64,000 nucleotides of DNA from contig CM035304.1 of NCBI GenBank assembly GCA_002900995.3, positions 665,498 to 729,497 on the forward strand, read 5' to 3'. The stretch is from Ganoderma boninense. Taxonomy: Eukaryota; Basidiomycota; Agaricomycetes; Polyporales; Polyporaceae. Below, piece after piece: positions 12,652 to 37,757 of this stretch. How positions within the stretch are numbered: position 1 is the stretch's first letter; every line of letters begins with the position of its first letter. A program made the position numbers and the translations under genes. Under the pieces are notes generated by a model, which did no database searches, was not told the origin of the DNA, and was given only the letters and a program-made list of their open reading frames with translations.

Positions 12652-13622
12652 GTGAGCCCACTGATTTTAGGACCGACGGTGCGCTGATTGGGGTGACGGC
12701 TGGTACCCCATCCAATGCATGCCCCGAGGCTTTATACACGCATTGATGTAGAAGGTGAGGAAATTTCTATGTATCGAGACTGTGAGAGAGGAGACTTCCC
12801 GCCCTTTGTTCACAACACGGGAGAGAACCTCATCGGCGCTTGTTGCCACGCCAGAACAACAAGGGCGCTCGCGAGCCTTGTCTCCGAGCATCCGTGTTGT
12901 TCTCCATGGCAGCAGTCGGTTACCGATGTTATTCAAGTCGTACGGTGCGTGTAAGACGTGAGAGCACTGAGGGGATGGATAAGTTCGCGACTTGACCGCT
13001 AGTGGACTTGTCCATGCCCAAAACAGCGGTCGGGCCTTGACGACGAGCATTCCCGTCCAAGGAGGTGAATTATGGAGTTTCTCTAGCATACATATATATG
13101 TGACTTGTCACATTTCCGACCCCAAAGCCTCCTTTGCCTGTGAATCTGTCCCTTATCGTCGTACCTTTTTGTCCTGGACACGAATTGACCAGAAAATCAT
13201 TTACAGCCTGGGCCTTCTAAAGTGCCGTGGCGGCTATCCGGGTGCCACGATTTTTAGCATCTCCATGGCGGTGTTTTTCGCAATTCCTGGACACGGTAGT
13301 GGGAAGGTCTTGGAAGCAGGAAAGTCGAAATCGTCTGGGGTATGGTCGGTGTTTCAGAAACACGATGCAGAGGGAGCTCCGATGCGGTGCCGACCGTGCG
13401 TCAGCGGAGCTCCACAGCCTTGAAAGGCGGCGTGGCATTTACTGCGGACGCTCTTGCAGTGCCCGGTGCGCTCAGAGTGGACCTCAGGGGCAGTGGTAGG
13501 GGCATGAGGAGCCTGTGCATGGGTGTCGAGATTCCTTTGGCGGGTATAGTGTTTGGCAACGGGCATATATAGGCATTCTGCTTGACGTTTTGCCCGCCTC
13601 GACCGACGTCTGCGATTCTGAT
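12652..13622. other. No recognised gene
   Basis: Several overlapping open frames on both strands, none with a recognisable domain. It separates the TIR element from the block that holds the Helitron and RNR genes. Confidence 0.4.
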
Positions 13623-14249
13623 ATGGCTGACCGTACTTCAAAGGAAGAACTCTTCCATTGTGCAGAGCAAAGGCTGTTTCGATTTGTAGATGGACGCGCT
13701 GCCGCTGGTGTGCGACACCTGTCGCGTGTGCAGATCCTGAGTATGATGGACGAATTCCTTCGCCTCGTCCGTGCGTTGCGCGGCAGGGTTGCTTGCGATG
13801 TTGTCGACGAGGACTACTTCGTACCGATGTATACATTTGTTGTTCAGCAAGCAGAGCGTCAGCGTCCAAGTGCGAAAGGCATGCGGGGGTTCGCTGTGGA
13901 GTATTCACGCATCACTCGGAAATACCGATATCGGTTCTGTCGTTGGGAGTGTGGGGTGGCGACCGATGTGTGGTTGGAAACGCGGGTGAGGTTGGTTGGG
14001 TTACTCCTTGGCTATCTTCGCAGAGACGACCCGGTACGCCTGGGAGACATCAACGAGGCGATCATGAAGCACCGGTCTGCTATTGAAGATGTCCAGCTGT
14101 ACAGCGAGATGAGTGCGAAAGCTGGTCGAGAATGTGAGGCTTTCTTCAAATTACCTTCAAGGGGGCCTACTGATCGCGTTGTAGACGTCGCCGTCAAGGC
14201 TAGGGGGGTATATTGGACGGAAGAGGGCGGCGGGGAACCGAGTGGCTGA
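13623..14249 (+). CDS. Hypothetical protein, possible Helitron cargo
   Basis: Uninterrupted 208-codon frame from the Met at 13623 (MADRTSKEELFHCAEQRLFRF) to the stop at 14247-14249; the frame is open further upstream but without a better start. The protein looks mostly helical, is rich in Arg, Glu and Val, and shows no signal peptide, membrane segment or motif I recognise. It lies on the same strand as RepHel and tail-to-tail with the RNR small-subunit gene. Its coding strand becomes G-rich, like RepHel and unlike the C-rich coding strands of the F-box genes. That makes membership in the same element plausible, as inference only. It could still be a chance open frame. Confidence 0.4.
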   Translation: MADRTSKEELFHCAEQRLFRFVDGRAAAGVRHLSRVQILSMMDEFLRLVRALRGRVACDVVDEDYFVPMYTFVVQQAERQRPSAKGMRGFAVEYSRITRKYRYRFCRWECGVATDVWLETRVRLVGLLLGYLRRDDPVRLGDINEAIMKHRSAIEDVQLYSEMSAKAGRECEAFFKLPSRGPTDRVVDVAVKARGVYWTEEGGGEPSG

Positions 14250-15046
14250 GTGTCATGCATCTTTCAGACCAGGGGATGTACACAGGTATGGACGGATATT
14301 TGTGATAGTCGGTGAGTTCTCATGGGGCGTGCTGTAGGGTACACGGGGTTGGGTCGTGAAGGGATAATACACGGGTAGTGTAGCGCTGGACGAGAAGGTG
14401 TAATGTGATAGTTAGCACTGTGTGGGAAGGGTTGCCCGTAGTGATTGGGATGGGAATTGTGAATGCGAGTGGGCCGTTCGATAGCGGGCGGCCATGACGT
14501 TCCGGTCCTGCAAGACCATTGCCCCATTGCTTGAGTGGATATACGGGTACTGACAGTTCAGACGAATATGGATGGCGAGCGGTGCATCCCCTCCTTTGCT
14601 CCTGGGCACTGCGTACAAGAACGTTCTCGACAGAAGATTCGCGCGGACTACGGTAGAGACTTGAAGTTCGTCTCAGCGGGGTCGCGGCCGGCGGGCCTGT
14701 AGCCTCCGGTCACGCGCACTGAGGTACGGCGAGGTGGGTTGTTGTTCGGCCACCCGAGCGATGCGTGTTCGTGGACGGCAGTGCATTGTTTTCATAAGTA
14801 GTGGTTCAATAAATAAGGCGGTGAATAATAGTACAACGGGCGGCACGTTACGGTAGGTATGGGCGGGGATGAGACGGGCTGTTGATAAGTAACGCAGACA
14901 GAGACGGGATAGCGTTGAGAGTCATACACGACTGCGTAGCTGTACGTCGCAAGGCGTGGATACATAAATAAGTAGATAAAGGGACGGGGGAAACGGCGCG
15001 ACGACGGGCGACGGAGAGTCGTGAAGTTGGTAGGAGTGATTGGAGG
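14250..15046. other. 3' flank of RNR small-subunit gene, G-rich plus strand
   Basis: No gene seen. Minus-strand transcripts of the RNR small subunit would run into this interval. It contains an AATAAATAA word at 14808-14816, which reads UUAUUUAUU in the transcript. The plus strand is strongly G over C (25 G against 9 C in 14821-14880). Confidence 0.5.
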
Positions 15047-16683
15047 CTAGAACGGCTCCTCAACAGAGCTGGGAGCCGATGGTGAGCAAGGACGACGGGC
15101 GATGTGTACAGTTGAGACTCACAACTCGTGATCTGGGCGTGCAGACGTCCCTGTGTATGTAGCGATGTGATATTCGGATACCCTGCGTTCAAAAACATTC
15201 GTGCGCCCGTCCATCGCGATTGTCTGCATGAAGGGGAACTGCCATGGGGTGAGTATGATTCGTGACGTGCAGACGGATGGAGGGGGTTGCGTACTGGGTT
15301 CTTCTTGTGAAAGATTGGACTTAGATCCAGGGCAAGGAGCAGACGATCTGCGATGACTTCGATGTAATCCGACATCATGTTTGGGTTCATTCCGGGAAGC
15401 CCCGTCGTGAGTGCATCTGAAGCGCGATCAGAGTCAGCTGGGGAGGTACAGTAGGTAGATGGAGAGCGCACCGTTGAAAAACACCTGCTCAAGTCGTACC
15501 GCTTCGCATATGATGTCAAGGACGGTAGACAGTGGTGGCTTCTGGGAGATGTAGCTGTACAGGAGGCAGGCGAAGTCTGTGTGTAGGCCTTCATCGCGAG
15601 AGATCAGCTCGTTCGAGTGACAGAGTCCCGGCATTAGGCCTCTGCTTTTCAGCCAAAAAATGGCAGCGAATGAAGAGGAGAAGAATATGCCTTCCACTGC
15701 AGCGAATGCAATGAGCCTCGTCGCGAACGGTTGATCGCGGTCTTCAATCCAGCGGAAACACCAATCCGCCTTGGCTTTGATCGAGGGTATGGAGGAAATG
15801 GCGGAGAATAGGGAACGTTGATGAGCCATGTCTTGTACAAGAGTGGAAAGACATAGGGCGTATGTCTCTGCGTGGACGTTCTCCCTGAAGAGTAGGGTGT
15901 TAGCAAAGTGTGAACCTCGTATATAAAGATATACAGTGCGTACATCATGATTTGGAAGCCGTAAAAGCATCTGGCCTCTGCGGCTTGGACCTCAGAGCAG
16001 AAGCGCTGGACGAGGTTCTCGTTAACTATGCCGTCGGAAGCTGCGAAGAATGCGAGTATCATTGAGAAGAAGTGCCGTTCGTGTTCGGATAACTGGTTAG
16101 TCCAATGAAGGACGTCCGTGGTGAGATCGATTTCTTCGGCGGTCCAGAAGCAGGCCTGAGCTTTCTTGTATGCTGACCAGATCTGAATGGCGTCAGTACA
16201 GATCGATGGATATGAGAAGCGGGGAGGTCTGACCTCCGGATAACGGACAGGGTAGACGACCAGGCAGGCGGTGTCTGGAAGTAGTATGGGATCGAGGGTA
16301 TCAGCATCTACGTGTGCGGGATGTAGAGCATCTGGGTCTGTAGGGCTGTCGGTCTGGGCAGGGGAGGATGGCATCTGAGAGGAGGGGATGGCGTATACGT
16401 CAGTGTCTAGTATCGGAGAGTAGGTGACCGCGGTATAAGTACCTGCTGAAGAAAATGTGTGCGTCTCGGCGGCGGGTTGACCGAATAAATGAGTATGTCG
16501 TTTAATGGCTGAAACGTTCTTGGCACAGCATGATGATATTGTGCCGCGCGGTGCAGTGGCACGGGTTCGGTGCGTCGTTTCAAGGACGGTACCAGTGTAG
16601 GAGTACTGCGGGTGACTGCGGGCCGCGTGCCTGAACCGTGAGCTTGGATGGACGAGGGGCGTATTCGTAACTCGCACCGCCAT
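15047..16683 (-). CDS. RNR2: Ribonucleotide reductase small (R2) subunit
   Basis: Class Ia RNR beta subunit, which holds the di-iron/tyrosyl-radical cofactor used by the large subunit to make dNDPs. Exons: 16683-16234, 16182-15944, 15884-15472, 15416-15295, 15238-15123, 15068-15047; all introns GT-AG, total 453 codons plus stop. Metal and radical residues are all present: [10 protein letters not shown] (Asp), ENVHAETY (Glu, His, radical Tyr), AAVEGIFF (Glu), SRDEGLH (Glu, His). A tiny last exon supplies the C-terminal docking tail FSVEEPF, matching the family pattern ending in Phe. The N-terminal about 130 residues are not conserved; the Met at 16683 is chosen because a TATATATA run lies 31-38 nt upstream, but a Met at 16830 is in frame. 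It is divergent from the Helitron gene. Confidence 0.9.
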
Positions 16684-16949
16684 GATGTTGCGATGGTGGC
16701 TATGCGGTGAATGATATATATGTGACCATATGCGACGGACGACAAATTGTCCCGGAGGCGAGTTGCTGAAGGCCCTGAGAGTATGATGAGATCGTGTGTT
16801 GTGCCATGCGCGCTGAATAATGGGTGGCACTGGCAGAGGTGTCTGGTGGGTTTGGCCCTGTGGTGGATGCCGGTGTGGGTATAAAGGGGACTGGACAATG
16901 CGGGGGAAGAATCTTCAGACTACTGACCTGAAGACTTCAACACGACCAG
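16684..16949. promoter_or_regulatory. Divergent promoter region between R2 and RepHel
   Basis: A 266-bp interval between two head-to-head start codons. TATAAAGG at 16880-16887 faces the RepHel start at 16950 (63 nt from the last T/A core base to ATG). On the opposite strand ATATATAT at 16714-16721 faces the R2 start at 16683. Shared control of the two genes is inferred from this arrangement. Confidence 0.55.
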
Positions 16950-19900
16950 ATGGATACTGCACAAAGTGACTTGGAGAACCTGTCGAACCTCGTCGATCAG
17001 CTACGAGGTATGCCAGACAACCCTTCACTATGCGGAATACGGGCTGACTGGGGAACAGTGGTTGACGACGCCTTAGAAGGCGGCTTGGCGGGGGATGTTA
17101 ATTCTAGGTCGCAGGAACGTGCAGCGCGGACAGAGGGTAAAGTGGTTGTTTGTGGTAGAGCTGGACAGGTTGGACTGATTGAGATGTTTAGAAATCATCA
17201 AAGTAATGAGTGGCGATGCCCGGCGCGCGAAAGAGGTGTTGTTAGGTGAGCGGATCGTTGGTTCTGGTCTAGGCGGACGCTGGATCTGACGAGAGCTTCT
17301 AGCTAGGGTTGTGGGCAGCGGTAACGGCAGCCTGATCCTCGAGTGGGCAGATGAAAGGGAGGTGTCGCTGAACTACACTCATCTTGTGTCGGGCGTGTTG
17401 GAAGCAGCAGTTGAGGGCAGAGACATCGCGACGCTTCCTTGCGATGTGGACGATCTGTTGGTGGGAGGGACGGTTGAGGGTGTCCTTTCCGTGTGGGATA
17501 TGTGGCACACTAAGGATTTGCGTGAAATCAGTAGGCTCCATAGAGTACGTTATGTGGTCAAGGACACGGCTATCCAGTTACGGAAAAGGCTGCTGACGCA
17601 TGAGTGCGAGGACGGGTGTCGGGATATTATCGTTGTTTTTCGAACGTTGCGCTGTCTTCGTACAAGTGCGCAGGTTGACCGAGTGATACGTCGTCGTCAG
17701 GATGAACAGGAAGATTATGATGATGAGTCGTTTATGGAGGTCGCAAGTGAGGAGTTGATGTTGGCGATAATGTTGGAGTGGCAGGATGTAATGCATACAA
17801 GTAGGCTTGTGTTGAAGGTTTGTGCTGTCTGTGGAAAGCGGTGCAAGGTCGATGACCTGCGCTGTCTGAGCGTTGAAGACATTGACCTGACATTGTTACG
17901 GAACGATGACTTACCGCGCCATGTGCTGCCCAGAGCGTACAATTTCAGTTTGTACGATAGGGCTCTGTTGCATCCTAAGGGAATGCGCAGCCTGTGGGGA
18001 CGGGATGAGATAAACGTTTGTTCAGCGTGCGGAGCGGACCTATGCGACAAGAAAAGAATGCCTAGGTATGCGCTGGCGAACTGGCTTTATTATGGGTATG
18101 ACGTGCTTCCGGATGATATTCGAGATGCATTTTCGTCTTCGACGCCTTTCGAGCGCGTTCTTGTGGCGAGAGCAAGGGCCAGCAAGATATCCTTCCGATT
18201 TAGTGAGATTGCTGGGAGTAGTTTGTTCGGATCTGACCCCGCCGTGTCTCAGCGGTGTATCAAGGGGAACGTCATTGTCATGCCGCAGGATGCGACTCAC
18301 CTCAATGTTGTTTTGCCCCCTCCGCCGGAGGTCGTTCGTGATACGATATGCACCGTGTTTGTGGGGCAGACGCCTCCGACACGGGAGACTATAGCTAGGT
18401 TATCCCCGATATTGGTTCGGAAGACGAGGGTGCGTAAGATGATCAAGTTCCTGACTGAGAACAACATGCATTACGCGTCTGCAAGTGACTTCCATGGGTT
18501 CAGTCAGTCCAATCTAGATGCCCTGTTTGCCGATGGGAGTGGTGGTCAGGACCAAGGCGTCGCGTGTGCGATGGAAATAGGATTTCTGGGGGATAATGCA
18601 GCCTTGCGCGGTGCGACGTCTGACTATACCACTCGAAATGACGTTGGGATGGGTCCTAGCAGGGTTGATGAACTTCTGATGGAGAACGTGGGTTATACCG
18701 ATGGAGACGAGACGCCGAGGACTTATGACCAGATGAAGATGCGTGCGTTGAAGTATTGTCTGGCTGGCGGCAAATTTCTGCAATCTCAGGCTGGCAATAT
18801 GTTCGTACCGGACTTTCAGAATCCAAGCTTGCTTAGTTGGTTGTTTCCGCATCTTGATCCTTGGGGGATTGGTGGGTTTTTCGAGGACGCTCGGAAGGTT
18901 CCGTTGGGATTGGAGGAGCAATTGTCTCATTTGTTACAGGTGGATGGTGCGCCGTTTGCTGCAGATCCCAATTTCGCATTTGTATACTACAATATCTGCC
19001 AGAAGAAGGCGGTCTGCGACTCGGTCAATTTTCGGATAAAGGTGTCGCAGCAGCAGGATATCATCAGGCAGTTGCTGGAGATCGATATGCCGATGTTGCA
19101 GACATTGATTGAGCGGTTTGAAAAGCAACCAACGTATGTACCGACGGAGCCTGCTGAACAAGCGATCATGCAAGTGTTAAATAGGGTGCGTATGGTTGGA
19201 CGTGACTTACCTGGGACTGCGGCCTACAAGGTAGTCTTGCGGAATGAGATCCGGAGTTTGATCAACTTCAAGGGAACTCCTGCGTTGTTTATCACGATGA
19301 ATCCGTCGGACGTGAACCATCCCCTCGTGCGGTTATATGCGGGAGAAGATATTGTCATGGAAGACATGGTGACGGGAGAGGAGCTTACATCGTGGCAGAG
19401 GAAGTTGGTGGCGGCGCGCAATCCAGTTGCGTGTGCTATGTTCTTCAACACTATGATATCTTCGTTTATCAATGTGGTGTTGCGATATGGTCGGCCCGGC
19501 CGTGGACTCTTTGGACAGTGCGTTGGATATTTCGGGACGGTTGAGGCTCAGGGCAAGGGGACGTTGCATTGTCACATGCTCATTTGGCTCAAAGGGCACC
19601 CTTCCCCACTGAAAATGCGCGATTCTATGTCGATTTCTCAACAGTATCAGAATGGCATGTTCACCTGGCTGGAGTCTATTATCAAGAGTGAGCTGCTGGG
19701 AACGACTGACGTTGTGCAGGAAGTTGGCGGAGTCGCTCTACCGCGCCCTAGATATGAAGAAGAGGGGAATAGACACCCTGCGACTTTGCCGCTGCCCTTG
19801 GTGTCAGAGCTGCCTCGTGATGTATTTTGGAGGGAGTTTGAACATACAGTTAATGAGTTAGTTAAGGCGTTTAATTGGCATGAACATACAGAAACGTGCT

Positions 19901-22900
19901 GGAAGTATCTGCGTGGGTCTGACCCAAAGGATGATGCGCATTGTCGGATGTGGATCGATGGCAGCACTAGGGCAGTGACGGGGGTTGATGAGGAGAGTGG
20001 GTCGATACTTCTGCGGAGGTTGCATCCCCGAATTGCGAACTATAACGATGTAGTTATTTTCTTGATGCAGTGCAACATCAACATTAAGCATGTGGGGTCC
20101 GGGGAAGCTGCGAACGCTTTGACGCAGTACGTCACCGAATATTTGACGAAGACCACGTTACCTACTCACGTTGGGTTAGCGGCGCTGTTATATGCCATCT
20201 AGAGGTCCGAAGAGCGCTTCCCGGGAGGCGTGCCAGATATATTAAACAATTCGCGGAGTGCCTTGACTACGACGGTGAACCGAATGCTATCTAGACAGGA
20301 GATCAGTCATCAGCAGGTTATGAGTTATCTAGTGGGCAGCGGGGATCATTATAAGAGTCACCGATTTCGTGTGCTCTACTTTGGTGCGTTTGAGAGGCTG
20401 TTCTGTAGTGTATGGGATGATGTCGAGGTTCCTGGGAGTAGCAGGGGTGTGGCAGTGGCTGTTTTAGACCCGAACCAGGGCCAGGCCTCGGGAGGGGATG
20501 TAGTGGATGCTGAGGGTGACAGGGGGGGGATGGCTGATATTGTACAAGAGACGTATCAGGTACAGGAACCATACGATGAAGACGCGACATTGTTTCTCGG
20601 GGCTGGATCCATATCCGCGGTGAACCAGCAACAGGATTATATGTATCGGAGCGATGAGCGTGAGTTCGAGGATATGAGTTTGTACGAGTTTGTGGGAATG
20701 GTGGAAAAGATCACGAAGCGAAGCGAAGAAAGTCGTGTGGCTCGCCGCGAGAGTGGTGGAACCGGACGAGGTAGACGGATAGAGGCTAGAGGCGCGTTCG
20801 GGAGTCAGCATCCACAGTACGAGACCCATATGTTGAGGAAACGCACTGTGTGGGTTGTACCTGTCGTACTTGGTGATAGGATTCCACGAAGTGACAGAGG
20901 AGAAGCTGAACGAGAGGAATGGGCGCGTACTATGTCGATATTGTTCTTACCTTGGCGGCACCCTCGTGACGTGAAAGGGGTTGGAGAGTCGTGGTTGGCT
21001 GCGTTCGAACGGCAGCGTGGTCTGATCAGCGAGGAGCACCTGATTATAATACGGAATATGAACGTGCTTTCAGAGTGCAGGGATGCCCGTGACGCAGTTG
21101 AACAGAGGCGGCGGACGGACGGCGGAAGTGCGTCGGGTTCTGTAGGTGTAGGTAACGTCGATGAGCGCATGCATACTATAGCAGGGGAAGTCGAATTGCT
21201 TCGTCGAAGACATTACGAGGAAAACTATTATGATGAATTTGATGAGGTTGTGACCAGCGCGGCAGGTGGCGAACCCCGTGTGGGACAAACCCTGCAAAGT
21301 AACATGGATCATGTCCTAGGGCCGAGGATTAGAACCGCACTTGACGCCTGTCATCGAGATGTTGATTTGGGAGGTGGCGACTCTCGGGGGTCAGTTTTGC
21401 ATGTCAGCACTCGGGATGGAGAGAACCTACGGATCGAGGCGAGTGTGATGAAGGAGCTGAAACGAAAGCGCGTTATGGAGGAAGATGCGGATGGTGGGCG
21501 GCCACCGAGGCGTCCTCGAGTTGATCATGATCCTCGGGTTGAGATAAGCCGGCTGGAGGATAGTGATCCCAATATGCAGGGGAATCGTGGGGGCGGGAAT
21601 GGGACAGTAGACGGTGAGATGATGTATGCCATGATTGAGCAGGTGATCGAGGAGAAGCAGCTGAGGGCTAATGCCGAGCAGCTGCGTGCGTTCGAGATAG
21701 TGGCATATCACGTGTGTTTTGGAGGCGAGCAGTTGTTGCTGTACATTGGCGGAGTCAGCGGCACTGGGAAGACGTACGTCGTACAGGCTATACTTCGTTT
21801 GTTTCAATTGCTGGGACGGAGGGACGAAGTCGTGCTTGGTGCTCCTACAGGTGCAGCTGCGAAGTTGATCGGGGGTCAAACGATACATTCATTGACGATG
21901 TTGCCAGATACGAAGAAGAGGCGTGATGTGTCGGAACTGATCCGAATTTGGAGAGGGAAAATGTGGATGATATCAGACGAGATTTCGATGGTAGGGGCGA
22001 GACTGCTGAGTCAATGGTCGAGACGCATGGAACAGGCGAAAGGGAATGAAGGAGTGTTATCGGGAGCGCCGTTTGGTGGAGTTAATATGATATTCTTGGG
22101 TGATTTCGGGCAACTGCGTCCCGTCAAGCAAGCTGCGTTGTTCAGCTATAAGCTAGTTAAATCACCGGGGTTAGAAGCGTGCAGGGATGATCAGGGGGTT
22201 GGTGCTCTGATGGGGGCCTATCTATGGCGTTGTGTCCAGAGTGTAGTGGTACTTAAAAAAAATCAGCGACAGATTGCAGATCCAGATTTTGCGGCATTGC
22301 TTACCCGGATCAGGTTGGGGCAAGGCTCCGTTCGTGGAGATAATAGCGACGCGGCATTGCTACGTCGATGCGAGCTGACGCGTGTCGCTGCGCAGTGCCC
22401 GGAGGACCTGATCCGCTTCCGTGATGCGCCTGTGATCGTTGGGAGGAAGAAGATAAGGGACTTGCTGAACGCGCGTTTGATCGAGCATCATGCGCGACGA
22501 GTTGGCCAGGAAGTGCACCTGTACTATGCAAGAGATAGCCTTGCTCGAATGCCTGTTACCGGGCCACTGCGGGATGAGTTGTGGAGGCTTCCGTCGACAG
22601 CGACAAATGACTCTCTTGGGCGTCTTCCCCTGTTCTGTGGAATGCGGGTGATGGTTCAGGAAAACCTGGCCTTCAGTAGGAACGTTGTCAATGGCTCTGA
22701 AGGCATAGTTAGAGAAGTGAAATATGACCTGGATGAAGAAGGACGTCGTTACGTTGTAGCGGTGTACGTGGAGATCGCAGGGGCAGGACAGGTATGTCAT
22801 ACGGTGGAGGAGAACGTGGTCCCCATCTTTCCTGAGATGACGTCGTTCAAGCATGTAATCTCGGAGGATGGTGTTGTACGGCAGCGTACTGTTTCTCATA

Positions 22901-23310
22901 CGCAGGTACCTCTTCTACCTGCGTATGCGTACACGGATTATAAGAGCCAAGGAAGGACGTTAGAGTACGCTATCGTGGATTTGGAGAGTGCACAGACCCT
23001 TCAGGGAGTCTACGTTATGCTTTCGAGGGTAAAAACTCTTCGCGGGCTAGCTGTGTTGCGACCCTTTTCCCCAGAGAAGGTCAATGCGCGGATTTCGGAG
23101 GAGTTGCGGGCTGAGTTTACTCGCCTTGAGATACTAGATGGGCGGACGCGAGAGAGGCACAGCCGAATGGTCGAGTTGCGAGAACATGGCCATAGACATG
23201 AATGGTCCTATCTCGTGAAGGTCTTGCGTTCTAGTGGTGGTATGTCGGTACGGCTAAATCTTAAATTGCTGCTGACTGAGCGTGTAGGTGGCGTAGAAGC
23301 GGCGGCCTAG
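16950..23310 (+). CDS. Helitron Rep/helicase (RepHel), one internal TAG
   Basis: Rolling-circle transposase-helicase. Exon 1 is 16950-17245, intron 17246-17318, exon 2 17319-23310, giving 2,096 codons with one in-frame TAG at 20200-20202. Order of domains: a DUF6570-like cysteine region (CAVCGKRC near 17824, CSACGADLC near 18022, then RYALANWLYYG); a Helitron_like_N Rep domain with the HUH motif GTLHCHMLIW at about 19558-19590 and the two-tyrosine motif YVTEYLTK at 20128-20151; then a PIF1-type helicase with Walker A GGVSGTGKT (21748-21774) and Walker B ISDEISMV (about 21970). The TAG sits just after the two-tyrosine motif, where related proteins continue without a stop, and the frame simply resumes. 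It could be a C-to-T change from CAG. Separate Rep and helicase halves would remain if translation is not read through. Confidence 0.9.
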
Positions 23311-26300
23311 ACTGAGGAAGGTGCTATGGATCGGTCTACGCCTTGGGCGATGTAGGTATGTCAGTCGTTTGTCGGTGTTAGGGGGGAGTGTTGATAAGGG
23401 TGAACATAGGTCGGAAGGCGTGCGCGCCCACGAAACATGTCGAAGGACCTTATCGTCATCGCGGTGAGGAGCGGCGGGGGTGCTTTGATGGCAGTAAAGT
23501 TGTGGTAGACAGGAGTGATTGGTGGAAGGCCCGTTCGGTGGCGTGTCTGCCGGAGAACGTGTTTAATAACCCGTGTGACCTTCTAGGTTCCTGGGATAGT
23601 GTTCAAAGGCAGACTGTTGTACCTGTAGCATTGTAGGGGCGTGCGGAGGGTATATAATACAGCGAGCGACACATGTTCGTTTGGATGCGTCGTCGAAAGT
23701 GAACGGGCGTCAGTGCGAACAGTGGACTCGTCAGACCGTTGGATGAGGTGAACCACGGGAGATTTACCGTCTGCGTCCTGCGCTTATGGGGTTCCAACGA
23801 TATCAAGGTCCGAGAGTTGTCGTGTTACGATGCCAGTGTTGTAGGTAAGTGTGTCGTTTAAACAGTCGCTTGAGGGGGTGAAGTTCGCCAGATGAAGACG
23901 CACCTTTGCGGAGCTCGTGGTGAGGTGTGATACAGCTAATGCGACCCATTCCGTGACGGATGAGAATGCTGGGAAGTGCTGGGTGAATAAGATTGTTTGG
24001 GATGCCGATGGGGGTGTGCGTGGGGGGTGTTCGTGGATGGAAAGGTGGTAAGTGGGGTTGGACCGCTTGGTGTGCGTGGGTTGTGCGGTAGGGAGTCTGT
24101 ACGTTGGCCATAATGAGTCGAAGGCGCAAGAGTGTACAGCGAAGAAATAGGACCTGTAGAAGGACATGGCAACAGGGAGCAATGCATTACACCGACTGGA
24201 GGGTGGTGAGGTTTCGAGAAGGAACAGAGCGGCGAGGTTGCACTCAGCTCAAGTCTTCAACGGTGGCCCGCGTCCGGTCGGTGCGAGCTCCGGGTCTGTT
24301 TGGCCGCCTTCAAGCTTCGGGCCGACGCGGGTGCTTTCTAGGGTAGCCGCCCGTAGGTGTGGCGGTGCCTTGCGCGTACCAGGCGTCTACACCTTTCCGC
24401 CTCACCCACGGGGTCTCCCATACCGCTCATGGTGAAGGTCCATTGAGAAGGTGGAACTACACCTGTCGTATTGTAGGAGGAGGCTCGCGTGGGGCCTCGC
24501 GCGGTCGGGACTTCTGTGCTGCCAGACAATCTTGACCGTGATTAATTCATTTTCTCCGCCAGGTCGTTGGTCGCAGAACCACTGTGTCGCCTGACATGAC
24601 CTCCTCGACATGCCACCGGGGCAGAATTTTACATAGGAAGCTCCAGCCTGGCTGGACTCTCTAAGACCGTGGAACCGATACCTTTGAACGGAAATCTACG
24701 ACCTGAGTTGTGAGGGAGGAGGGCGGACAGGTTAGAGAGTACCGCTGTCTAGTACGCTACCACTGCCGCTTCTGCGGATCTTGCGCTCCACTCATTCACG
24801 ACAGCATCCCGCATACATGCACTCCGGCGGTCGCATTCGAGCACACGGACGGGTCTCGGATGCCGGAACATATTTCAACTAATCATGACACAGCCCCAGT
24901 TCACCAGTGCAATGAATGGGACCGGTCCTGTGGAGATCCGAGGAGGTCGAAAACATCGCCCGAAGTGCGATTTCATGGTAATGGCCCGTGCCATTCAATG
25001 GGCAGCCACTCAGCCCGAGCTCGTACGGCCGGTACGACCACCTCAACACTTCCGACGAGGTGTCCAGTCTACTAATCTGCCGTCAGATACGGTCGCGTCC
25101 CCCTCGCAGCTGCGTGACACGGGGATTTCGCAACTCGGAGTCCATAGGCGCCACCCCGACGGCGACCCACAGTCGCTTTCCCGCGACGCGGTTGTCTGGA
25201 AGGTATATCCGTGCCGTCAAAACGCACACGGACGGACTTTAGACAGCGTCCGGGACCATCGAGGAAGCCGGCAGTGAAGCGCTATAGCGCATTTTGTGGG
25301 CACACAGCGAGTAATTCGAGTATTACTCGACGGTATCATCTCGGGACGCGTGCTAACATGCCGTTCCACAATGCCTGATCGTGCTCGCGACGAACGCCGG
25401 TGATTTAGCGACGATCCGTCAAGTTTCAACACATCGCGCAAACGGCGATTTCATGGAAGTTCGAATCACGCGGCCAGCGAAGCCGGCCCTCGACGAGCAA
25501 TCTAGCCAGCGGAACACTTCGAACGAAGTGTGCGAGGCATGCACAAGTCATGCGGACTGTTCCGCGCCCCCGAGAGCCGTTGTCGAGTATAGCACTGCGG
25601 CGGTGCATGGACGTGCTCGGGAGACCACCGTGAACCCCCAAATGCGGAACACGGAGCCTTCTCGACTGGCGGGCGTACACAGGCTGACGCCGACGCCTCA
25701 AACACGAGCCGGGGAGAGAGATAGAGATGAAAACAACGCGCGCGGACGTTGTCCGGCGTGGGACAAGTGTCCCGCCCAGTCGGCAGAACCGGCACGGACG
25801 TACCACCTCCCTGAGCACGGCCCGGCAGCGCGACGGCCGCCTGCACACAACATATGCAACCGCGAAGGTCGCGTCTCAGCGCAAGAGAACAGGGAGAACG
25901 GGGATCACGCTGCCGGGATGGTACGCGGTCCTGGATTATAGCTGGAGGCGCGGCTCGAGCCGGCGGTAACCCGCAGCTCTACCCACCAAGCGACTTTGTG
26001 CCAAAACGAAGGTCGCCCCGGGCGAACCTGGAACGGCCGCCGTTGTGCTCGGAGCTGGTGGTCACGGCGAGTACTCGCGTTCGTCTCCCCTATGTTTGCC
26101 TTTGTGGTTTCTATCGGCGATGTTGGTACGCTCATGTGCGGTATATCGGTTTGGAATGTTGCTCAGATTGGTTCGTCGTCTGCAGACCTCCTCACTTCTC
26201 ACTTCTAGTAAGGCTCAGTATGGCTCTCGCTACGGCTAGATGGGCACAAACGGGAGGAAGTACCATCGTTGAAGTCTACTCCGGCTACATCAAGCTGCAG

Positions 26301-26741
26301 GGGGCGATTTCGTGCAACCGTCTTGAATATGGCCACATGGACTGCACTTCATTCGCAGGTCCTGTTGTATTGTTGGAGGTGTACCTTCCGAACTGTGGTG
26401 TGCGCACCGGTATTGACGTTCTCTTGAAGGCGTGTATCCTGAGAGGTTGTAGGCAGAGGCCAGCCAACGTGCGTCGTTGACGCGTGACGCGCTGAACAAA
26501 GGGGCGGCTAGAAAGGACAGAATAGTGATCGTCAGAACGGACTGCCCGATGAGCAGCTTGGAGCGCTCAGGACACAGTGCCTCAGCTCCCTGAAGGAACT
26601 CGTTGGCAACAAAAATGCGTCCGAGCAACGTGAGTGTGAGCGTTACGCCACGTCGCGGCCAGCAGAGAACGATGTGGCCATCACTATGCCGGGTGGACCG
26701 TGTGGACCACGATGGTGCCGTTTTGGAGTGGATGAGGAGAA

Positions 26742-27071
26742 AATAAATAGGACGTTTAATACAACGACGTGCATGCGCGTACCAGTGTACCTGAACGGCC
26801 AGTACTGTACAACAATCAAGAAGAGCAGTGGATGGGAGGGGGGCATGTAGTATAAATAGCCTACGACGGTGACATAAATATGGTGTGCATGGGGTGGCAT
26901 AGGATCGTGTGCGAGTGACGATGACAGTAGGTTGTACATATGTATACGACGACTGACTGCCGTCGATAAATATGGAGCGACGAGGAGTACATGGCAAGAC
27001 GTATACGAGGATCGTTTGCCATTGATAAATATGAGGGAGAGGAGTGCATAACAGGACGCGGCGAATAAATA
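26742..27071 (-). promoter_or_regulatory. Array of UAUUUAU words in the R1 3' flank
   Basis: On the transcribed (minus) strand, TATTTAT words occur at about 27071-27064, 27032-27025, 26973-26966, 26881-26874 and 26749-26742, starting 140 nt past the R1 stop. They resemble AU-rich or poly(A)-control elements. Function is inference. Confidence 0.4.
26942..27059 (+). repeat. Two imperfect 59-bp direct repeats
   Basis: Copies start GTATACGACGA at 26942 and GTATACGAGGA at 27001. Each carries TGCC, then GATAAATATG, then AGGAGT.CAT and CA.GAC at matching offsets. Confidence 0.65.
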
Positions 27072-27211
27072 TGTGGGGGCGGTGGGTCCGAAGGAGAACG
27101 CGAGTGAAGGGGTTGAACGTGACTACCGGATACTAATGTCGCATGGGTGTCAGCGTAGAAGGCTGGAGGGAAGGGTCGTTGTCGCGATCACAAATGTCGG
27201 TGATTAGTGGG

Positions 27212-30200
27212 TCAGCCTAGGCAGACTGAGCATGCTGTGGCCGACGTGTAAGACGACATTGGCGAGTCGGGGCGGTGAACGGACGAGGTGGCGCAGGTGT
27301 CGTGATCATCAGAGGGGGGAGTAGGATACATTGAGAGAGCAGGAAGAGGACGCTCGGGAGATGTGTCGTCATCGTCTGACTGAATCGCCGTAAGCGGCGG
27401 TGTATCGTCATTGTCGTCCGTTTGTTCGCTGGCAGGGCTGGATGGGGGTGCCTTTGGTTCGAGACCAAACTGGATAGGGTACGTGGCGGGTTTCGTTCGC
27501 AGGTAGTACATGCCTGTCTTCAGGCCTGCTCCCCAGCCATAGAAGTGCATAGACGTCTATGATAGGCTTGCTTTAGCTGCATCTGTGTGGAGGTTACGGG
27601 GTGCGACACTTACCAGCTTTTTGTATGTGGGATCTGCCATGTAGATCGACATGCTTTGGCTCTGGCATATGAACGGACCGCGGCTTGCAGCGAGGTCAAT
27701 AATACTCTTTTGCGACATCTCCCAGGCAGTCTTGTACAAGTCCTTCAGCTCGGTCGGTATGTCGGGGATATCCTGGATGGAGCCTACGACATGGTGAAGG
27801 AGTGAAATGAGCCCGAGGGACAGGATGAACTTACCATGGTTCCGAATCAGTTGCTGCCGGATATCGTCGTTCCAGAGGTCGCAAATGATGAGGTCACGTA
27901 TCAGCCACTTGTTAATGATCTGGCACTCGATCCCTAGTCCTCTGCGCACGTAAACATTGCTGGATCGACGTCTGAGTTAACGATTGGGATCCTAAAGGAT
28001 CCATGCAAACGCACCTTATATACGGGTCCACCCCGTCATTCACGCCGGTGATTTGAGAGGTCGAGGACGTGGGCATTTGAGCGGTGAGAAGAGAGTTGCG
28101 TAAACCGTACTTGCTGATGCGTGTCTTGAGAGCGGCCCAGTCGTATCTACCCGAAGGCCGTTTTGACCAGAGATCAAATTGTAGCTGTAGGGAGGAGGCG
28201 GGGCTACCTTCCCATGCGGGGTATGGGCCGTGCGTACTGGCGAGGTCGCAGCTTGCTTCGATGGCCGCGTGGTATACTGTCTCGGAGATGGCAGTACTCA
28301 GTCGCCGGGCATCCACGGAGTCGAATGGTAGGCGAGAAATCTGGAAGAGGTTGGCAAGGCCCTGGAGGCCGACCCCGATCGGCCGTGATTGCGTGGCAGA
28401 TTTCCGGGCTGCTTCTGTGGGGTAGTAGTTTAGGTCGATGATCCTGTCGGTGTTTCTGACGACCGCTTTGGCTACGCGATGGAGGGTAGCGAAGTCGAAC
28501 TCGTGCGTTGGCGTGACGAAGGAGGGTAGGACTAGAGATGCCAAGGTGCAAACTGCCGTTTCAGTGGGGGAAATATGTTGCATGATTTCCGTGCATAAAT
28601 TGCTGCTATTAATGACCCCGATGTTGCGCTGATTGCTTTTGCCTGCGCGAACATCAACGTTTGTATGCGGCTCTGCAAAGCATACTGAATGTGACTTACT
28701 ATTGATCGTGTCGCGGTAGATGATGAAAGGGGTCCCAGTTTCGATTTGTTGTTGGATGATTCGATACCAGACGTCTCGGGCCGGGATGACGAGGCGGGCG
28801 GTACCTTGGCGTTCATAGCGGCAGTACGCACTCTCGAAGTTGCTGCCATAGCAAGTGAGGAGCTGGGGGACGTCGACGGGGTCAAACAACGACCACCGTT
28901 CGTTGTCGCGAACTCGTTTCATACTGTTCGTTGGTCAGCGGAGGTGTTAGAATTGTCCGAGAGGGGCATGTGCACGTACAAAAGGTCGGGTATAGTGAGG
29001 CCAGTGAATATATGCCGGGTGCGCTTCTGCTCGAGGCCTGTATTGGCGCGTGCGTCGAGGAATTCGAGAATATCAGCATGCCAAGGAGCCACAAAGACTG
29101 CGGAGGCCGAGGCTCGGCCCGACCGAGACTGAGTTGTGTACACTGTGGTAGCATCGAAGAGACGCATGAGCGGAAGAAGGCCAGGCTGATGTGGGACTCG
29201 GTCTGTCCTGTAGTAGATGTAAGTCACCCGTATAGTAGTGGTTTTGTAAAGTGCTTACCTCGTTGCAGGGATGTTGTGAAGGTCTACCCCGACCCCGCCG
29301 TCGTGCATGAAGATCTTTGCAGTCTGTCGTAGGCCATCGAACATCGTTGTAGTTGATTCCGTGTTGAGAGCTTGCATGAAACAAGAGGCGAGCTGGGGGA
29401 AAGGTGTACCCGAGTTCTTGAGGGTAGGAGTGGCGTGGACGTAGAAGCCGCGGGACAGGAGGTCGTAGGTGTCGAATGCCGCGGTGAAGTCTGTGCCATG
29501 TAGCTGCAGTGCGGTCCGCATCCACATGAACTGCGGGCGTTCGATGACCACCCCTTCGTGCTTCAATAGATAGCTGCGCTCGAGCGACTTGAACATGAAG
29601 CTGCGCGGTCGTGAGAAGGTTAGTGATTCGGGTGTAAATGCACCACGCACTATGTCATCTCGGAGTCGCGTGAGTGTCGAATTGCAGAGTCTATGGCGTC
29701 CGCATTGCTCTGTACAGTGTTGACAAAGTCCGTATGAAAGAAGTTGGGGTGGTCTGGACGGCCCGGCCCCGCGCGTGAGGGGGGGCATGTATCTAAAGTG
29801 TGGATTGTGGACGTACCTTCGTGCATGTTGAGCACGAATCGTGAAAACGACTTGGGCGTGCGGCGATGGAGGGGTGCAATCGCGAGTCGGCCTGCCAGGA
29901 TGGCGTAATCGGGATGACGGTTGGTGGCATCTGCCGTACTCAGAGCGGTGAGGTCCTGCGAGGGCGATCAGATGACGTCGGGCCCGGAGACGGCGAAACG
30001 TTACCTGTATCTCAACTGTTGAAATATCGTCCGTTTTGCCCGCTTCGACCTGTTCCACGATGCTGAAGAGGGGTTAACTTGTACAGCCACTGGGGGGGGA
30101 ATAGAACTGGGCCCGTCACCTGTTGAGATCGAGTCTATCGAGGTCGAGCTCGAATGTGTGCTGGATGATCGGTAGTGTTAGCGGGCAGTGTGTGTTCGGG

Positions 30201-30484
30201 AGATACATTCGGGTGGGGGTACCTTCAACAGAGAGGCGTGAAGCTGGAGGCCGTGGTCAGCTCATGGGGTTGCTTTCACGCCATGCAGATGCCTTACCTT
30301 GTCGCGGTAAAATGGTTCCTGCCTCCTGAGTGGCTGTTAGCAGAAGAGCGAAGGGGAGTATGCTCTAAGGACTGTACCCGTCTGGCGTGAGGACTATGAG
30401 TCAGTATAGCGCACCATAAGGCTGATTATATTGTGACATACCGCGCTTTCTGACCAGGGTGCTCTTTGAAAGATCAGTTATCAT
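27212..30484 (-). CDS. RNR1: Ribonucleotide reductase large (R1) subunit, 15 exons
   Basis: Class Ia RNR alpha subunit. Exons: 30484-30442, 30381-30378, 30325-30298, 30243-30223, 30160-30120, 30062-30005, 29955-29817, 29753-29651, 29600-29259, 29207-28980, 28923-28700, 28642-28015, 27959-27835, 27783-27614, 27556-27212; total 832 codons plus stop, all GT-AG. The N-terminus has a short ATP-cone-like KRDGRQEP. Active-site groups are present: LASCFM (Cys), NSSNLCTEI (Asn, Cys, Glu), AVCTLAS (Cys), PTSSTSQI, the radical-transfer pair GMYYLR, and a C-terminal Cys-x-x-Cys (CSVCLG). The region of specificity loop 2 is unusual: the common GGNKRPGAF is replaced by SRSGRASAS, although a Gln and Arg remain at the expected spacing. 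About 70 residues before the CxxC are low-complexity Ser/Pro/Asp. Convergent with RepHel. Confidence 0.9.
30378..30381 (-). other. RNR1: 4-nt microexon of the R1 gene
   Basis: The sequence ACGG is bounded by CAG upstream and GTACAG downstream on the minus strand. Including it joins AAG-CGC-G to GAGGCAGG and restores KRDGR, the conserved start of the ATP-cone. Direct splicing of the flanking exons loses the frame. Confidence 0.6.
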
Positions 30485-31597
30485 GATGCTGCAGGTGAGG
30501 GCCTTGAGGGGCAGGGGCGATTTGCCTGGTAGGTGTGTGCCGTCGGCCTTTTATGTGGTTGCGCGAAGTATGCACCATGATCGGTCACCCTGGGCAGTGA
30601 GTTGGATGGTGTGGTTTGGCTGGCCGTCTGTTGCCTAGCGCCCCTGTAGGGAAACTTTGTGTGATTAGAGGTATTCCGTAGGCTCCATGGCCCGAATGCT
30701 GGGAATTGGGTATCAGGAGGTACCGGCATGAGTCATGAGGCAGTTTCGAAACGCCTGCGAGTCAGTAGAGGGAGGACAAAGACAGACTGTTTGGTATGAC
30801 CGTGCCTTGCACGATTGCGGCAGAGCGCATCTCGATGGACGGGTAGCACGAACCGGAGTACTAATGCTCACATGCTAGTCGTTGCGATGTCACTTGCGAC
30901 GACATGTGCTTTGGCCTCCTGTGTGCCTTTGCGCATACGATCATTCTACTAGGACAAGACTTCGAGGGAGGCGGGACACGGTTCTGTGGAAAGGACTACC
31001 GGCGTGTCGAGGTGAGATGGTGCGCGCGACGAGATGACGGCAGATCTCTGCTGGCTAGAGAATAATTTGGACAAATTGGCTTGGTTGCTAGATTGCCAGT
31101 GTCTGTGCAAAGTAGTGTGCCAAGGAGCGAGACGTCGGGGGCCGTCGCTGGTCTGAGAAGTGTGGAGTCTACTGTGATGGAGCCGTATGCTGCGCTGCAC
31201 AGTAGGCGCAGGACGAGCTGAATATCCAATGTAGCACCGTGCACGTACCTCTGAAGTGTCGTTGTGAGATTTGAGGTGGTGGTCGAAGCTGTGAGGTCCC
31301 TCTGGGCTTCCGACATCCTGTGAAAGGCGCCGAAGCGTGGGAAGTGCGTGGTCACTACGTAACCAGGGCTAAGTCTACCACCCCGCTGCTCAGTCATTAG
31401 TGGATTGCGGTACCTGCATTGGTCGACTACGGTAGTGAGTGGTGGAGATTTCGTCTATAACAGGTACGTACGTGGACTTGGCAGAGTGCATTTCGTTTGT
31501 GACGGACGGCGATGTTGAGACATTCCGGGTGGGCGTCGGCCTTGGGTCTAAAACTGGCCCTTTGGTCTGGTACGCTCCCCGTATCACCACAGTCAGT
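30485..31597. other. Intergenic between R1 and the nucleotidyltransferase-like gene
   Basis: No gene seen. The 5' side of R1 must hold its promoter. The only clear structure is a hairpin at 30878-30903. An open frame extends the downstream gene to a Met at 31439, which I do not favour. Confidence 0.45.
30878..30903. other. 10-bp stem hairpin, 6-nt loop
   Basis: Arms GTCGTTGCGA and TTGCGACGAC pair over 10 positions with two G-T wobbles around TGTCAC. It lies beyond R1 on the Helitron 3' side, but no CTRR follows within about 12 nt, so it does not qualify as a Helitron end. Confidence 0.45.
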
Positions 31598-32883
31598 ATG
31601 TCCCAGGTTTCTGCCTTTGAACTTTTCCTTCTTGCTGCAGACCCCTCTACGCTGTCCTTCATATTCGACCGGCTAACCGTACATCAAGTCTTCCGGATGT
31701 ACAGGGTCAGCCTGCGAGTATACGTGGTTGTTTACCACTACGTTCGCCTGGCTTGGTCTGTCAAGACCTTTCTTGACCGTTGGTTTGGCCTCGGTGGAAA
31801 CGTGGAGGTCATGGAGATGCTTGAGGACTGTTCTGCCATCATTTCGGGCTCCACTGTCCTCCAGTTCCTGTCCCGTTCCGCTCCTGATCCCAACAGTGAT
31901 CTGGACATCTTCGTCCCTCTGGAGGGGTTGCTCAGGTTCGGTCGATGGCTTCAAGAGATGGGTTACTCCTACAAGCCCCGCGGAGGAGGTCCGCTCACTT
32001 CATTCGATGCTGCAGCCCTGACTCTTCCTGTCCGCTGGAGCTGTGGGCATCATGGACCGTCGACGTCGGACCCTCTTGCCTTCCGGCGGCCCTTCGAAGT
32101 ATTCGACTTCGTAGACGAGGCAGATCGCCCCGAGTCTGTGCAGCGGTCACGCTCGCCTCGTCTACAGTTGATTGCTGTTGTTGGTGACCCTAGGAAGCAT
32201 GTCCTGACCTTCCACTCCAGTACATCACATCTTTGCGACTGATGACTCTGATATGGACGGGCTGATGCGTCGGTAGCAGTAGCCATGAACTACATCACGA
32301 GCAAGAACGTTGTGTCGCTATTCCCGACGTCGACGCTGTCATTGCAGCGCTCGTGGGTCTGTCGGACATGTCGTGGCGAGGGTGCGGGAGTCTACCAGGC
32401 CACAGAAGCCTGGCGCCGGAAGTACACAGAGCGGGGGTTCTCCATAGTCGGTGAACCCGGGTGGAAGGTTGAAGAAGAGCCTGGAGAGTTGTGCGCAGAT
32501 CGTTGGACCGGAGATTCGTGGTGCTGGACTCTTGAGTTTGATCGTGAACGTAAGTGTGTCCTCGACTCGCGCTGTGGGTTTAGCGGTTCACTGTCGCCGC
32601 CATAGCATTTTTCGTTCGCTCGTCGAAAGATGTGGACCCGCATGCTCTTGACCGGGCGATCAAGTTCCAGATCATCACAGCCGCTCGGGGACCGGTTACG
32701 TCCCATTGCTACATGAACATTGCTCCCCCCTTCACGATCAGGTGAGCGTCGCATGCATTGATGGGAAGCTTGCATTGATGGATATACTTGCATAGTGCGT
32801 TTGCTGTCACGGGGCAGTTCGAGTACGCCGAGCCGTGGTCCTACGGGGGAACATTAGAGACCGTTGCAGCCTTCGGCGTGTGA
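31598..32883 (+). CDS. Nucleotidyltransferase-fold-like hypothetical protein
   Basis: Intact four-exon gene: 31598-32219, 32283-32549, 32606-32741, 32796-32883, 370 codons plus stop, GT-AG introns. The N-terminal part (FIFDRLTVHQVFRMYRVS) is F-box-like. It is followed by a nucleotidyltransferase-like signature ISGSTVLQFL..NSDLDIFVP, with the Gly-Ser and paired Asp typical of that fold. The remainder (FHST MNYITSKNVVSLFP, RKYTERGFSIV) matches an expanded agaricomycete family of unknown role as I remember it. I start at the Met at 31598 (MSQVSAFELFLLA); an in-frame Met at 31439 is possible. A third catalytic acid is not evident, so enzymatic activity is doubtful. Confidence 0.75.
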
Positions 32884-35194: not shown

Positions 35195-36780
35195 ATGGAT
35201 CCCGTAGTGCAAGAGCAGCTGTTGCGTTGGCGATCGGAAACGATCCTAGATAGCGACCTACCGTTCGAAGCTGCCGTTGCCTCGCTCGGAACCCCTGATG
35301 CAGTGGTGGAGCTACGTCAACGGAGTCCGAATAGGTGGACGGTGGGTTGTCGTTTTGCTGCAATGTTCTCGAGGGACTAAAAAATATCCAGCTTTTCAAC
35401 ACGGAGACCAATGAGGTGGCGGTCCTCAGCTATGCGGCATGCTTTTCGAGGTCGGACGACTACTTCACGGGAAATCTGGCTGAGCCTCAACCTGGAGGAG
35501 CCCGCTCCGTCGACGCCGACCTAATGTATGACAAACTGTGAGTGGTAGCCGGGGTGGTACTATCATCCGTATCCTGAATAATAATCTACAGGCAGCCGTA
35601 TGCTAACTTCAAATGCCACTACGCGTACGCCTTTGACACATACAACGACAAGTCCCTGTGGGAGATCCAGTCGGTGAGTTCTTGTTGGTGTATGGCGAAC
35701 TAACTGTAAAATGACAACATTGCGCAGAACTTGGAGACGTTCGTTTCGACGCTGACCGGTTTCAACCCTGATGCCCTTCCTCGCCGCGTTTACGACTCCC
35801 CCGATGACCCATCCAACATGCGCCGCCGATTTTGGATGTGTGCTCCCATGTTTGTTCGAGTTAAACGGGGAGAACGCAAGCGATCACCTCCGGCCCACTT
35901 GCACGAGCGCGTTATCAACGCTGACAAGCGTTCGTACGTGTTCAACGCGAGCCCTGCCAGACCGACAGTGTATACGTTTGACGAGGGGACGGGTGTGTTC
36001 ACCGAAGTCACTCAGTCGGGGGTCCTCATGACTGGGGACGTCACGGTGGTGAATTTTGCGCTGTGCGTCGTCATCGGGGCGAACCAGTGGTACACGGAGT
36101 TCATCCCTGCGGAGATCGTACGTGTCTCTCCCGAGCCCTCATATAGTGCTGTTGTGTCGGACGACGATGGACCCCCCATCGCTACGCAGCGGCCTAAGCT
36201 CAGCCAAGCTATGCAGTTCACTGGTATGACCGGTTCTCCACAATCTGTCGTTGGGGCCGTGAGTGCTGACAGTATGCGTTGTTTTCTAGGAGACGCTCGT
36301 GGCCATGATGTGGTGGTACCGCCTGCCGGTGGTGGATACCAGCCAAACGATGTTCCAGCTCAGCACCAACCTGCCCCACCCCGTCCGCCGTCAGTAACGT
36401 CAGTGACTGTCATCGCTGAATCGGTGGCGGCTATGGAGGTGGACGACTCAGGTGATAAGAAGGTCGAACTCGATGATGACTTGTCCGACTTGTCCGACTT
36501 TGTCGTGGCGGATGTGGAAGGTACAGCTACCTTGCCGTCAGTCTCGTCGGGCTTCGTTCATGCCAACACTCTAAGGGATTCGCGCAAGACGGATTCCGAC
36601 GACGGTCAGAGTTCGACTGCGTCATCCTCCCGTGGGAACGCGTCGGGAAAGAGAAAGCGGGCTGGCGGAGTCTCTTCCGAAGGCTCTTCTGCGGGCAGTG
36701 GCGTATTCACTGACGAGGAAGATCCTGGATCGGGCCCTACTCGTTGTCCACGCAAGACAGGGCCGAAGAACAGGCGGTAG
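35195..36780 (+). pseudogene. Hypothetical serine/acid-rich protein, frameshifted in exon 1
   Basis: Coding blocks: 35195 to about 35376 (MDPVVQEQLLRWRSETIL..WTVGCRFAAMFSRD), then a frame change just before AAAAAA at 35381-35386, continuing GLKNIQLFNTETNEVAVL..MYDKL to about 35538; then a short exon QPYANFKCHYAYAFDTYN (about 35592-35671) and a long exon from about 35729 to 36780 with a likely in-frame intron near 36223-36289 (GTATGA..TTTCTAG). The first half resembles an agaricomycete family of unknown function. The C-terminus is acidic and Ser-rich with basic NLS-like clusters (GKRKRAGG, CPRKTGPKNRR). The frameshift either inactivates the gene or is a homopolymer error. No function assigned. 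Confidence 0.55.
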
Positions 36781-36828
36781 TGTCGGTCTTGCGGAGACCA
36801 TATGGAGGAATCTTACGGGATTCTGAGC

Positions 36829-36938
36829 ATTTATTTATTTGGAACGCCTCGCCGCATTAGTTCGAGTATCCGAGCATTGCTTCGATTATTTATTGGGTCT
36901 GCAGATCGTGCAGGACCAGACCGCTTCGGTTATTTATT
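36829..36938 (+). promoter_or_regulatory. UUAUUUAUU cluster downstream of the 35.2-36.8 kb gene
   Basis: ATTTATTTATTT at 36829-36840 and TTATTTATT at 36887-36895 and 36930-36938, in the sense direction and 50-160 nt past the stop. Similar words follow R1, R2 and the 42.9 kb F-box gene. Confidence 0.4.
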
Positions 36939-37256: not shown

Positions 37257-37261
37257 CTGAA
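37257..37261 (+). repeat. Target-site duplication, left copy
   Basis: CTGAA directly abuts the left LTR; the same five bases follow the right LTR at 42583-42587. Confidence 0.9.
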
Positions 37262-37731: not shown

Positions 37732-37732
37732 G

Positions 37733-37745
37733 TACCCCCCTCCTA
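37733..37745 (-). other. Polypurine tract
   Basis: On the minus strand AGGAGGGGGGTAC lies directly before the 3' LTR, the place where plus-strand DNA synthesis is primed. Confidence 0.75.
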
Positions 37746-37757
37746 AGGGTCGTGCCC

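Follow-up and report, generated by a model that had tools for sequence, protein, structure and literature searches.

Ribonucleotide reductase (RNR) genes are common in large DNA viruses, and carrying them is usually regarded as typical of viruses and phages whose replication outpaces the DNA metabolism of the host. The Helitron2-type transposon FoHeli of Fusarium oxysporum encodes a Rep-helicase (RepHel) without an endonuclease, is bounded by asymmetric terminal inverted repeats and inserts without duplicating its target site; it has non-autonomous relatives, and its transposase open reading frame (ORF) occurs in either orientation relative to the ends (PMC5148889). In the basidiomycete Pleurotus ostreatus, the RepHel elements HELPO1 and HELPO2 carry extra genes (capA-F), unknown or viral-like; they measure 6.6-7.2 kb, with one of 13.7 kb, and the word "reductase" is absent from the main text of that study (PMC4289320). 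Replicons with their own RNR are represented by giant viruses and endogenous giant-virus DNA, for example in Phytophthora parasitica, a viral insertion whose RNR consists of two partial ORFs of ambiguous origin and on whose contig Helitrons are listed as separate repeats (PMC8204020). Searches of open-licence papers, judged mostly by title or abstract, brought up no Helitron or other eukaryotic transposon with an RNR. Here we describe a candidate in a 64,000-nucleotide stretch of the Ganoderma boninense genome (the window; C1:665498-729497, C1 being contig CM035304.1 of the 55.57-Mb, 74-contig assembly GCA_002900995.3). We propose, with a probability of roughly 0.68, that the window holds the left part of a giant rolling-circle transposon with Helitron2-type ends, whose own class Ia RNR, made of a large (R1) and a small (R2) subunit, would sustain deoxynucleoside triphosphates (dNTPs) for its replication.

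A sequence-only reading of the window had placed R2, RepHel and R1 one after the other, and Pfam and homology searches agree (Table 1). It had also credited both subunits with their catalytic, metal and radical residues and C-terminal tails, which we found again, reading by eye, in alignments of R1 with the structures 1zyz and 3hnc and of R2 with 3hf1. The minus-strand exons of R1 join by GT-AG into an open core of 686 amino acids (aa) with the catalytic Cys/Asn/Cys/Glu/Cys positions, the YY pair and the C-terminal CSVCLG tail, and an N-terminal ATP-cone region is present; its closest solved relatives are the class Ia R1 proteins of yeast and human (E 4e-210 and 9e-209). The R2 protein, with exons likewise read by eye, matches human p53R2 (E 1.8e-115, residues 37-320). 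We recognise in it the radical Tyr (ENVHAETY) as well as the Asp/Glu/His ligand motifs, and its tail, ...FSVEEPF, ends at 15047. The R1 catalytic residues and the R2 di-metal ligands and Tyr together identify a class Ia RNR. Introns in this eukaryotic genome are ~50-60 nt long.

The RepHel gene matches Helitron_like_N (E 5e-31) and DUF6570 in 17290-20199(+) and PIF1 helicase (E 3e-20) in 20203-23307(+), and contains the HUH motif "HCH", the Rep motif "QYVTEY" and Walker A and B motifs. An HUH/Y2 Rep joined to a PIF1-type helicase is the signature of the Helitron superfamily. Both parts are present, but in the window's copy an in-frame TAG at 20200-20202 divides the frame between them. The broken RepHel frame makes it probable that the window's element has lost its autonomy, while both of its RNR genes remain readable. 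Longer RepHel open frames occur in other RNR elements (2134 aa at C7:974803 and 1998 aa at C5:4526864), and Pfam detected no endonuclease domain, the mark of a Helentron, in one 2134-aa RepHel.

Rather than enclosing RepHel alone, the ends of the element take in R2, RepHel and R1 together. The block first proposed for it, 13600-31400, is too short: the left end is at window position 13284 and the right end falls beyond the window, near C1:781,926. The window thus covers the left ~50.7 kb of an element whose full span is 103 kb, a length reached because nested DNA lies inside it. On the left, positions 12820-13284 form a repeat that is present three more times on C1; the similarity to these copies breaks off at 13279-13284, and the sequence inward of 13284 is kept in an element on C5 (92%, 59 nt) and another on C7 (79%, 67 nt). 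The left-end pattern (LTS) has 20 matches in the genome versus 3 in a reversed control. The right end (RTS) was recognised as a 36-nt motif common to the far sides of two elements of a second gene order (type B, below) and combines the LTS head, in inverted form, with a further segment after it; its pattern has 36 matches (3 exact, 13 with one mismatch and 20 with two) versus none in the control. The two ends are asymmetric terminal inverted repeats, the LTS reading TTCCTGGWCACG and the RTS CGTGWCCAGG then GCCCGGAGGG, and a palindrome, GCCCGGAGGGC, lies 8 nt from the 3' end of the window's element. Canonical Helitrons have a short hairpin 10-12 nt from their 3' end, and Helitron2 elements have hairpins at both termini.

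A paralogous empty site on C1 places the insertion precisely. The left flank of the window's element has its counterpart at C1:860323-860783 (89%). Beyond the RTS at C1:781895, the DNA matches the right half of the same site, C1:860740-860880, with a local score of 129 against a maximum of 35 over 200 shuffles. This right flank was not found inside the window; it is located 103 kb from the left end. The filled junctions read …CGCAA|TTCCTGG … CTTACGTA|TGGAAG… and the empty copy …CTCGA|TGGAAG…, from which we conclude that insertion took place between A and T without duplication, the insertion point being ambiguous by one base to the right. The lack of a target-site duplication is established for this one element with its paralogous empty site. 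The left flank ends in AT in each of five elements that were read. Observed 3' ends are ...CGTA|T, ...TGTA|T or ...CCTAT|T, and the 5' ends start TTCC or TCC, again with one base of ambiguity.

Pairing each LTS with the nearest same-strand RTS gave 19 pairs from 20 LTS; C2:740355 (no RTS partner), C6:3252643 (partner at 279 kb) and C3:868030 (2.7 Mb) were left out as elements. The 17 pairs kept reach up to 103 kb and include seven of 461-750 bp, one of 7.9 kb and one of 20.6 kb that holds RepHel only. All eight pairs above 30 kb, namely the window's and seven other RNR elements, contain R1, R2 and RepHel. At five more loci (C3, C11:969k, C7:945k, C5:632k and C9) an RTS lies 0.6-2.2 kb from the approximate midpoint of R1.

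The short non-autonomous copies are C7:362214-362675, C8:2432994-2433460, C3:1815962-1816440, C7:703624-704103, C4:3584006-3584549, C1:2271318-2271869 and C12:2362398-2363148. The first shares ~59 nt of identical left-end sequence with the type B RNR element at C1:2217292, which suggests recent mobilisation. End motifs at C7:362675 and C1:2271869, facing RNR elements, had suggested an ordinary inverted-repeat transposon; this was rejected because these motifs end separate copies of 461 or 551 bp, and no full-length inverted repeat was found on the far side of two type B elements. A palindrome at 50568-50652, tried as the 3' end, was ruled out as part of a high-copy inverted-repeat element.

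Starships of Pezizomycotina are also giant, cargo-carrying fungal transposons, with a tyrosine-recombinase captain and different ends; the enzyme here is RepHel. Since its ends are asymmetric inverted repeats, we classify the element by its ends as Helitron2-like. The proposal that a Helitron-type element carries R1 and R2 is supported, the cargo lying inside the mapped ends. These ends are not canonical: the 5'-TC/3'-CTRR termini of Helitron1 were not found. Nor does the insertion site agree with the Helitron2 target given in PMC5148889 (between TTTT and T or C); it is A^T, which the same source gives for canonical Helitrons. The element shares with FoHeli all the features listed at the outset, the orientation of RepHel relative to the ends differing between types A and B. 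It differs in its end sequences, in inserting after AT in a context other than TNAT|T, and in that elements of this kind reach 33-50 kb and hold R1 and R2 along with genes that recur from one to the next, which the passages of PMC5148889 consulted do not describe for FoHeli.

We grouped 56 R1 matches into 18 loci; the search scores best candidates only, and the counts are lower bounds. Besides housekeeping genes there are at least 17 R1 and at least 15 R2 loci, so that the window's R1 and R2 are not the genome's only RNR genes. The housekeeping R1 (C5:1796470-1798138) is 1.1 Mb from the nearest listed RepHel, and the 15 R2 loci are counted beyond a divergent housekeeping-type pair on C4. This pair stands head to head, C4:1732568-1733398(-) and C4:1734754-1735589(+), one with a 344-aa open frame and the other matched in several pieces (spliced). 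A RepHel lies within 58 kb of R1 at 16 of the 17 non-housekeeping loci and an R2 within 61 kb at 14 of them, all three genes coming together at 13. The single R1 locus without RepHel (C9) has an RTS, g35 (an ORF of the window's element) and R2 nearby. As the same cluster recurs in the genome, the association of RNR with RepHel exceeds chance. RepHel itself was found at 35 places, fragments included, 17 of them near R1 or R2. Relatives of g35 occur at 18 loci: 15 are R1 loci (15/17) and one is the C10 locus with R2 and RepHel; of the remaining two, C5:3360k is close to a RepHel that has no RNR, and the other is C7:3087k.

Two gene orders occur among these elements. In type A (the window, C5:4492-4534k and C7:309-359k) the order is R2(-), RepHel(+), R1(-), g31, g35, F-box-like, kinase-like, g48, colinear across 36 kb of the window, with the likeness mainly in coding stretches at ~64-72% nucleotide identity. 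In type B, for example C11:1579-1616k, it is R1(-) … g35(+) … R2(-) RepHel(+). The RNR element at C2:3694349-3759479 has a third, mixed order, type A-like on the RepHel side and type B-like on the R1 side, and may be a recombinant.

We followed R1 in 8 of the 17 non-housekeeping loci (3 type A, 5 type B). In a tree with the host gene, as the sequence-only reading had advised, the eight element R1s form a clade of their own (100/99), split into A and B (100/100 each). Five intron positions are identical in place and phase in 8/8 element R1s; a sixth is identical in 6/8 and lies 5-6 columns off, beside a gap, in the other two, and in one copy the aligner placed an extra 279-nt intron, probably in error. 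Two of the element introns also occur in the host R1. The shared introns and the single clade fit a scenario in which a eukaryotic gene with introns was captured once, as DNA, before the A/B split. Across the 13 within-type pairs, the proportion of nonsynonymous differences (pN) is 0.11-0.28 versus 0.75-0.83 for synonymous ones (pS, saturated). Judged by these substitutions, R1 is under strong and long purifying selection: since pS is saturated and pN low, selection has kept it for longer than silent sites record. Seven of the eight cores are free of stops and one (L007) has a single stop; the aligner penalises stops, which makes this count mildly favourable.

The overall dATP feedback site of R1 appears to have changed in all these copies. 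The position of human Asp57 in the ATP cone lies, in ungapped alignment, 14 residues before a conserved HPDY/HPDH. The host R1 has D there; all three type A copies have Q, as does one of type B, and the other four type B copies have L, so that none of the eight element R1s retains the aspartate. In mouse R1, D57N abolishes the discrimination between dATP and ATP, and dNTP pools rise in mammalian and yeast cells (PMC3267527). The element RNR is therefore predicted to be released from overall dATP feedback.

In the proposed mechanism, RepHel would nick and unwind the element and set off rolling-circle replication, while the element RNR, lacking the feedback aspartate, would keep dNTP pools high enough for a single-stranded intermediate of 33-50 kb, perhaps mattering when the host's own RNR is low. 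Supplying dNTPs for this replication is the likeliest role of the RNR, and the reading fits because R1 is under purifying selection and has lost the dATP-feedback residue. That several old copies keep the RNR readable suggests a transposon that may bring its own supply of DNA precursors. The odds are about even for a stronger version, in which a giant Helitron2-like lineage would carry feedback-deregulated RNR as a conserved replication module and, like a virus without a capsid, produce DNA precursors for itself and amplify by rolling circle independently of S-phase dNTP control by the host. Were the enzyme to work, dNTP supply would become a testable limit on transposon replication and the boundary between giant transposons and viruses would blur; a mutagenic cost for the host would also be predicted, because a deregulated RNR raises dNTP pools. 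The mapped ends make circles, empty sites and expression directly searchable.

Several observations weigh against this proposal. At 18 of the 35 places with RepHel or a fragment of it, neither R1 nor R2 lies close by, from which it follows that RNR is not needed by every relative, and some RNR copies are degraded (C9 and C2:4176k, besides the stop in L007). The ATP cone has diverged as a whole, which is why loss of feedback remains a prediction. The placement of the element R1s relative to those of host, yeast and human is weak (86/92, with long branches), and the 3' hairpin folds no better than shuffled sequences (z -0.28 and 0.38). Finally, a stretch of 100 N lies inside the element, and past the window edge the part read is its last ~50 nt.

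The best surviving alternative, though an unlikely one, is that the RNR is passenger cargo aiding the host, through extra or deregulated dNTPs or tolerance of stress or DNA damage, in the manner of accessory genes that other giant fungal transposons carry, with the element gaining only indirectly. The readable R1 and R2 beside a broken RepHel would agree with it, as would the F-box-like and kinase-like genes also carried; however, RNR keeps company with RepHel and g35 at nearly all R1 loci, and no non-housekeeping R1 locus was found free of element features, not even C9. We regard as quite improbable an origin of these elements by endogenisation of a large DNA virus with a RepHel replicase. 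RNR is a typical gene of such viruses (PMC8204020 offers an instance), many divergent lineages with open frames coexist in one genome, and gene order differs between types A and B. Against this, R1 has spliceosomal introns, two at host positions, and non-autonomous copies of 0.46-0.75 kb have the same ends. A Pfam scan of 22 distinct ORF pieces gave no viral hallmark, and the capsid of nucleocytoplasmic large DNA viruses (PF04451) had no match in the genome, in a search whose controls also gave none. RepHel has no relative in IMG/VR and R1 has five, of which L047 was left out of the tree; Helitron_like_N was not found in these five viral records, which may be fragments and were searched without a positive control genome, although the same family was detected in the G. 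boninense genome. The closest viral R1, that of L043, shares 49% identity with the window's R1; in the tree it falls with the R1s of host, yeast and human and not with those of the elements (the 86/92 fork). L043 (IMGVR_UViG_3300031576_001285) is a 41.7-kb viral contig, and its R1 has 71% identity to the host and human proteins, a much greater likeness than the element R1s have to them. Accidental Helitron gene capture with the RNR drifting is strongly disfavoured: Helitrons do capture genes and the damaged copies would agree with it, yet R1 and R2 stay paired at 14 loci and in the eight R1 copies read the proteins are conserved while synonymous sites are saturated.

The element holds further genes besides R2, RepHel and R1: one is F-box-like, another is related to it, a third is kinase-like and three are unknown (Table 1).

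Table 1. Features of the element and of DNA nested in it, in window positions
Feature	Position	Strand	Basis
Left (5') end, starts TTCCTGGACACGGTAGTG	13284..13345	+	Limit of flanking repeat; inward conservation
g13, unknown protein	13500..14249	+	tblastn: 42% identical relative in C5 element; no Pfam match
R2, RNR small subunit, spliced	15047..16683	-	Homology, exon reading
RepHel N-terminal part: DUF6570 and Rep (HUH, two Tyr)	17290..20199	+	Pfam, motifs
RepHel C-terminal part: PIF1 helicase, in-frame stop before it	20203..23310	+	Pfam, motifs
R1, RNR large subunit, spliced, with ATP cone	27212..30484	-	Homology, splicing
g31, unknown	31439..32883	+	Kept in three type A elements compared
g35, unknown	35195..36877	+	Common to type A and type B elements
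Nested Ty3-type long terminal repeat (LTR) retrotransposon, later insertion, not the element's own	37260..42582	-	LTRs, pol-type frame
g43, F-box-like	42862..44084	+	Pfam E 2.8e-5, 24.2 bits, just below cut-off 24.3
g46, protein-kinase-like, several exons	46287..47681	+	Pfam E 3.5e-4, below cut-off
g48, relative of g43	48121..49327	+	Sequence comparison
One arm of separate high-copy inverted-repeat element, nested	49985..51035	+	Genome copies
100 N	51817..51916	.	Right end of element at C1:781895-781926

For g31, Pfam and AF2 (pLDDT 48) were uninformative and Foldseek gave no match below E 2; the AF2 model of g35 is poor (pLDDT 36). The first part of g31 (31439-32239) and the type B ORFs L022:1392-2309 and L028:6386-7237 have in common a motif, ISGS...(S/G)D(L/M)D(V/I)(Y/F)V, which we take to resemble a nucleotidyltransferase-fold signature; Pfam, AF2 and Foldseek gave no support for this.

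In the Ty3-type retrotransposon, a recent insertion within the element, the pol-type frame has 1083 aa and the two 472-bp LTRs are identical. The inverted-repeat element consists of two arms of ~0.85-1.05 kb, ~0.6 kb apart, with copies at dozens of sites (e.g., C11:2711782-2714492) that are mostly 91-99% identical among the longer matches listed. Farther right, window positions ~54900-60930 are a multi-copy element, in which four minus-strand ORFs were scanned with no significant Pfam match; it is 97-100% identical to pieces of C10:99914-117296 and 74-79% identical to others.

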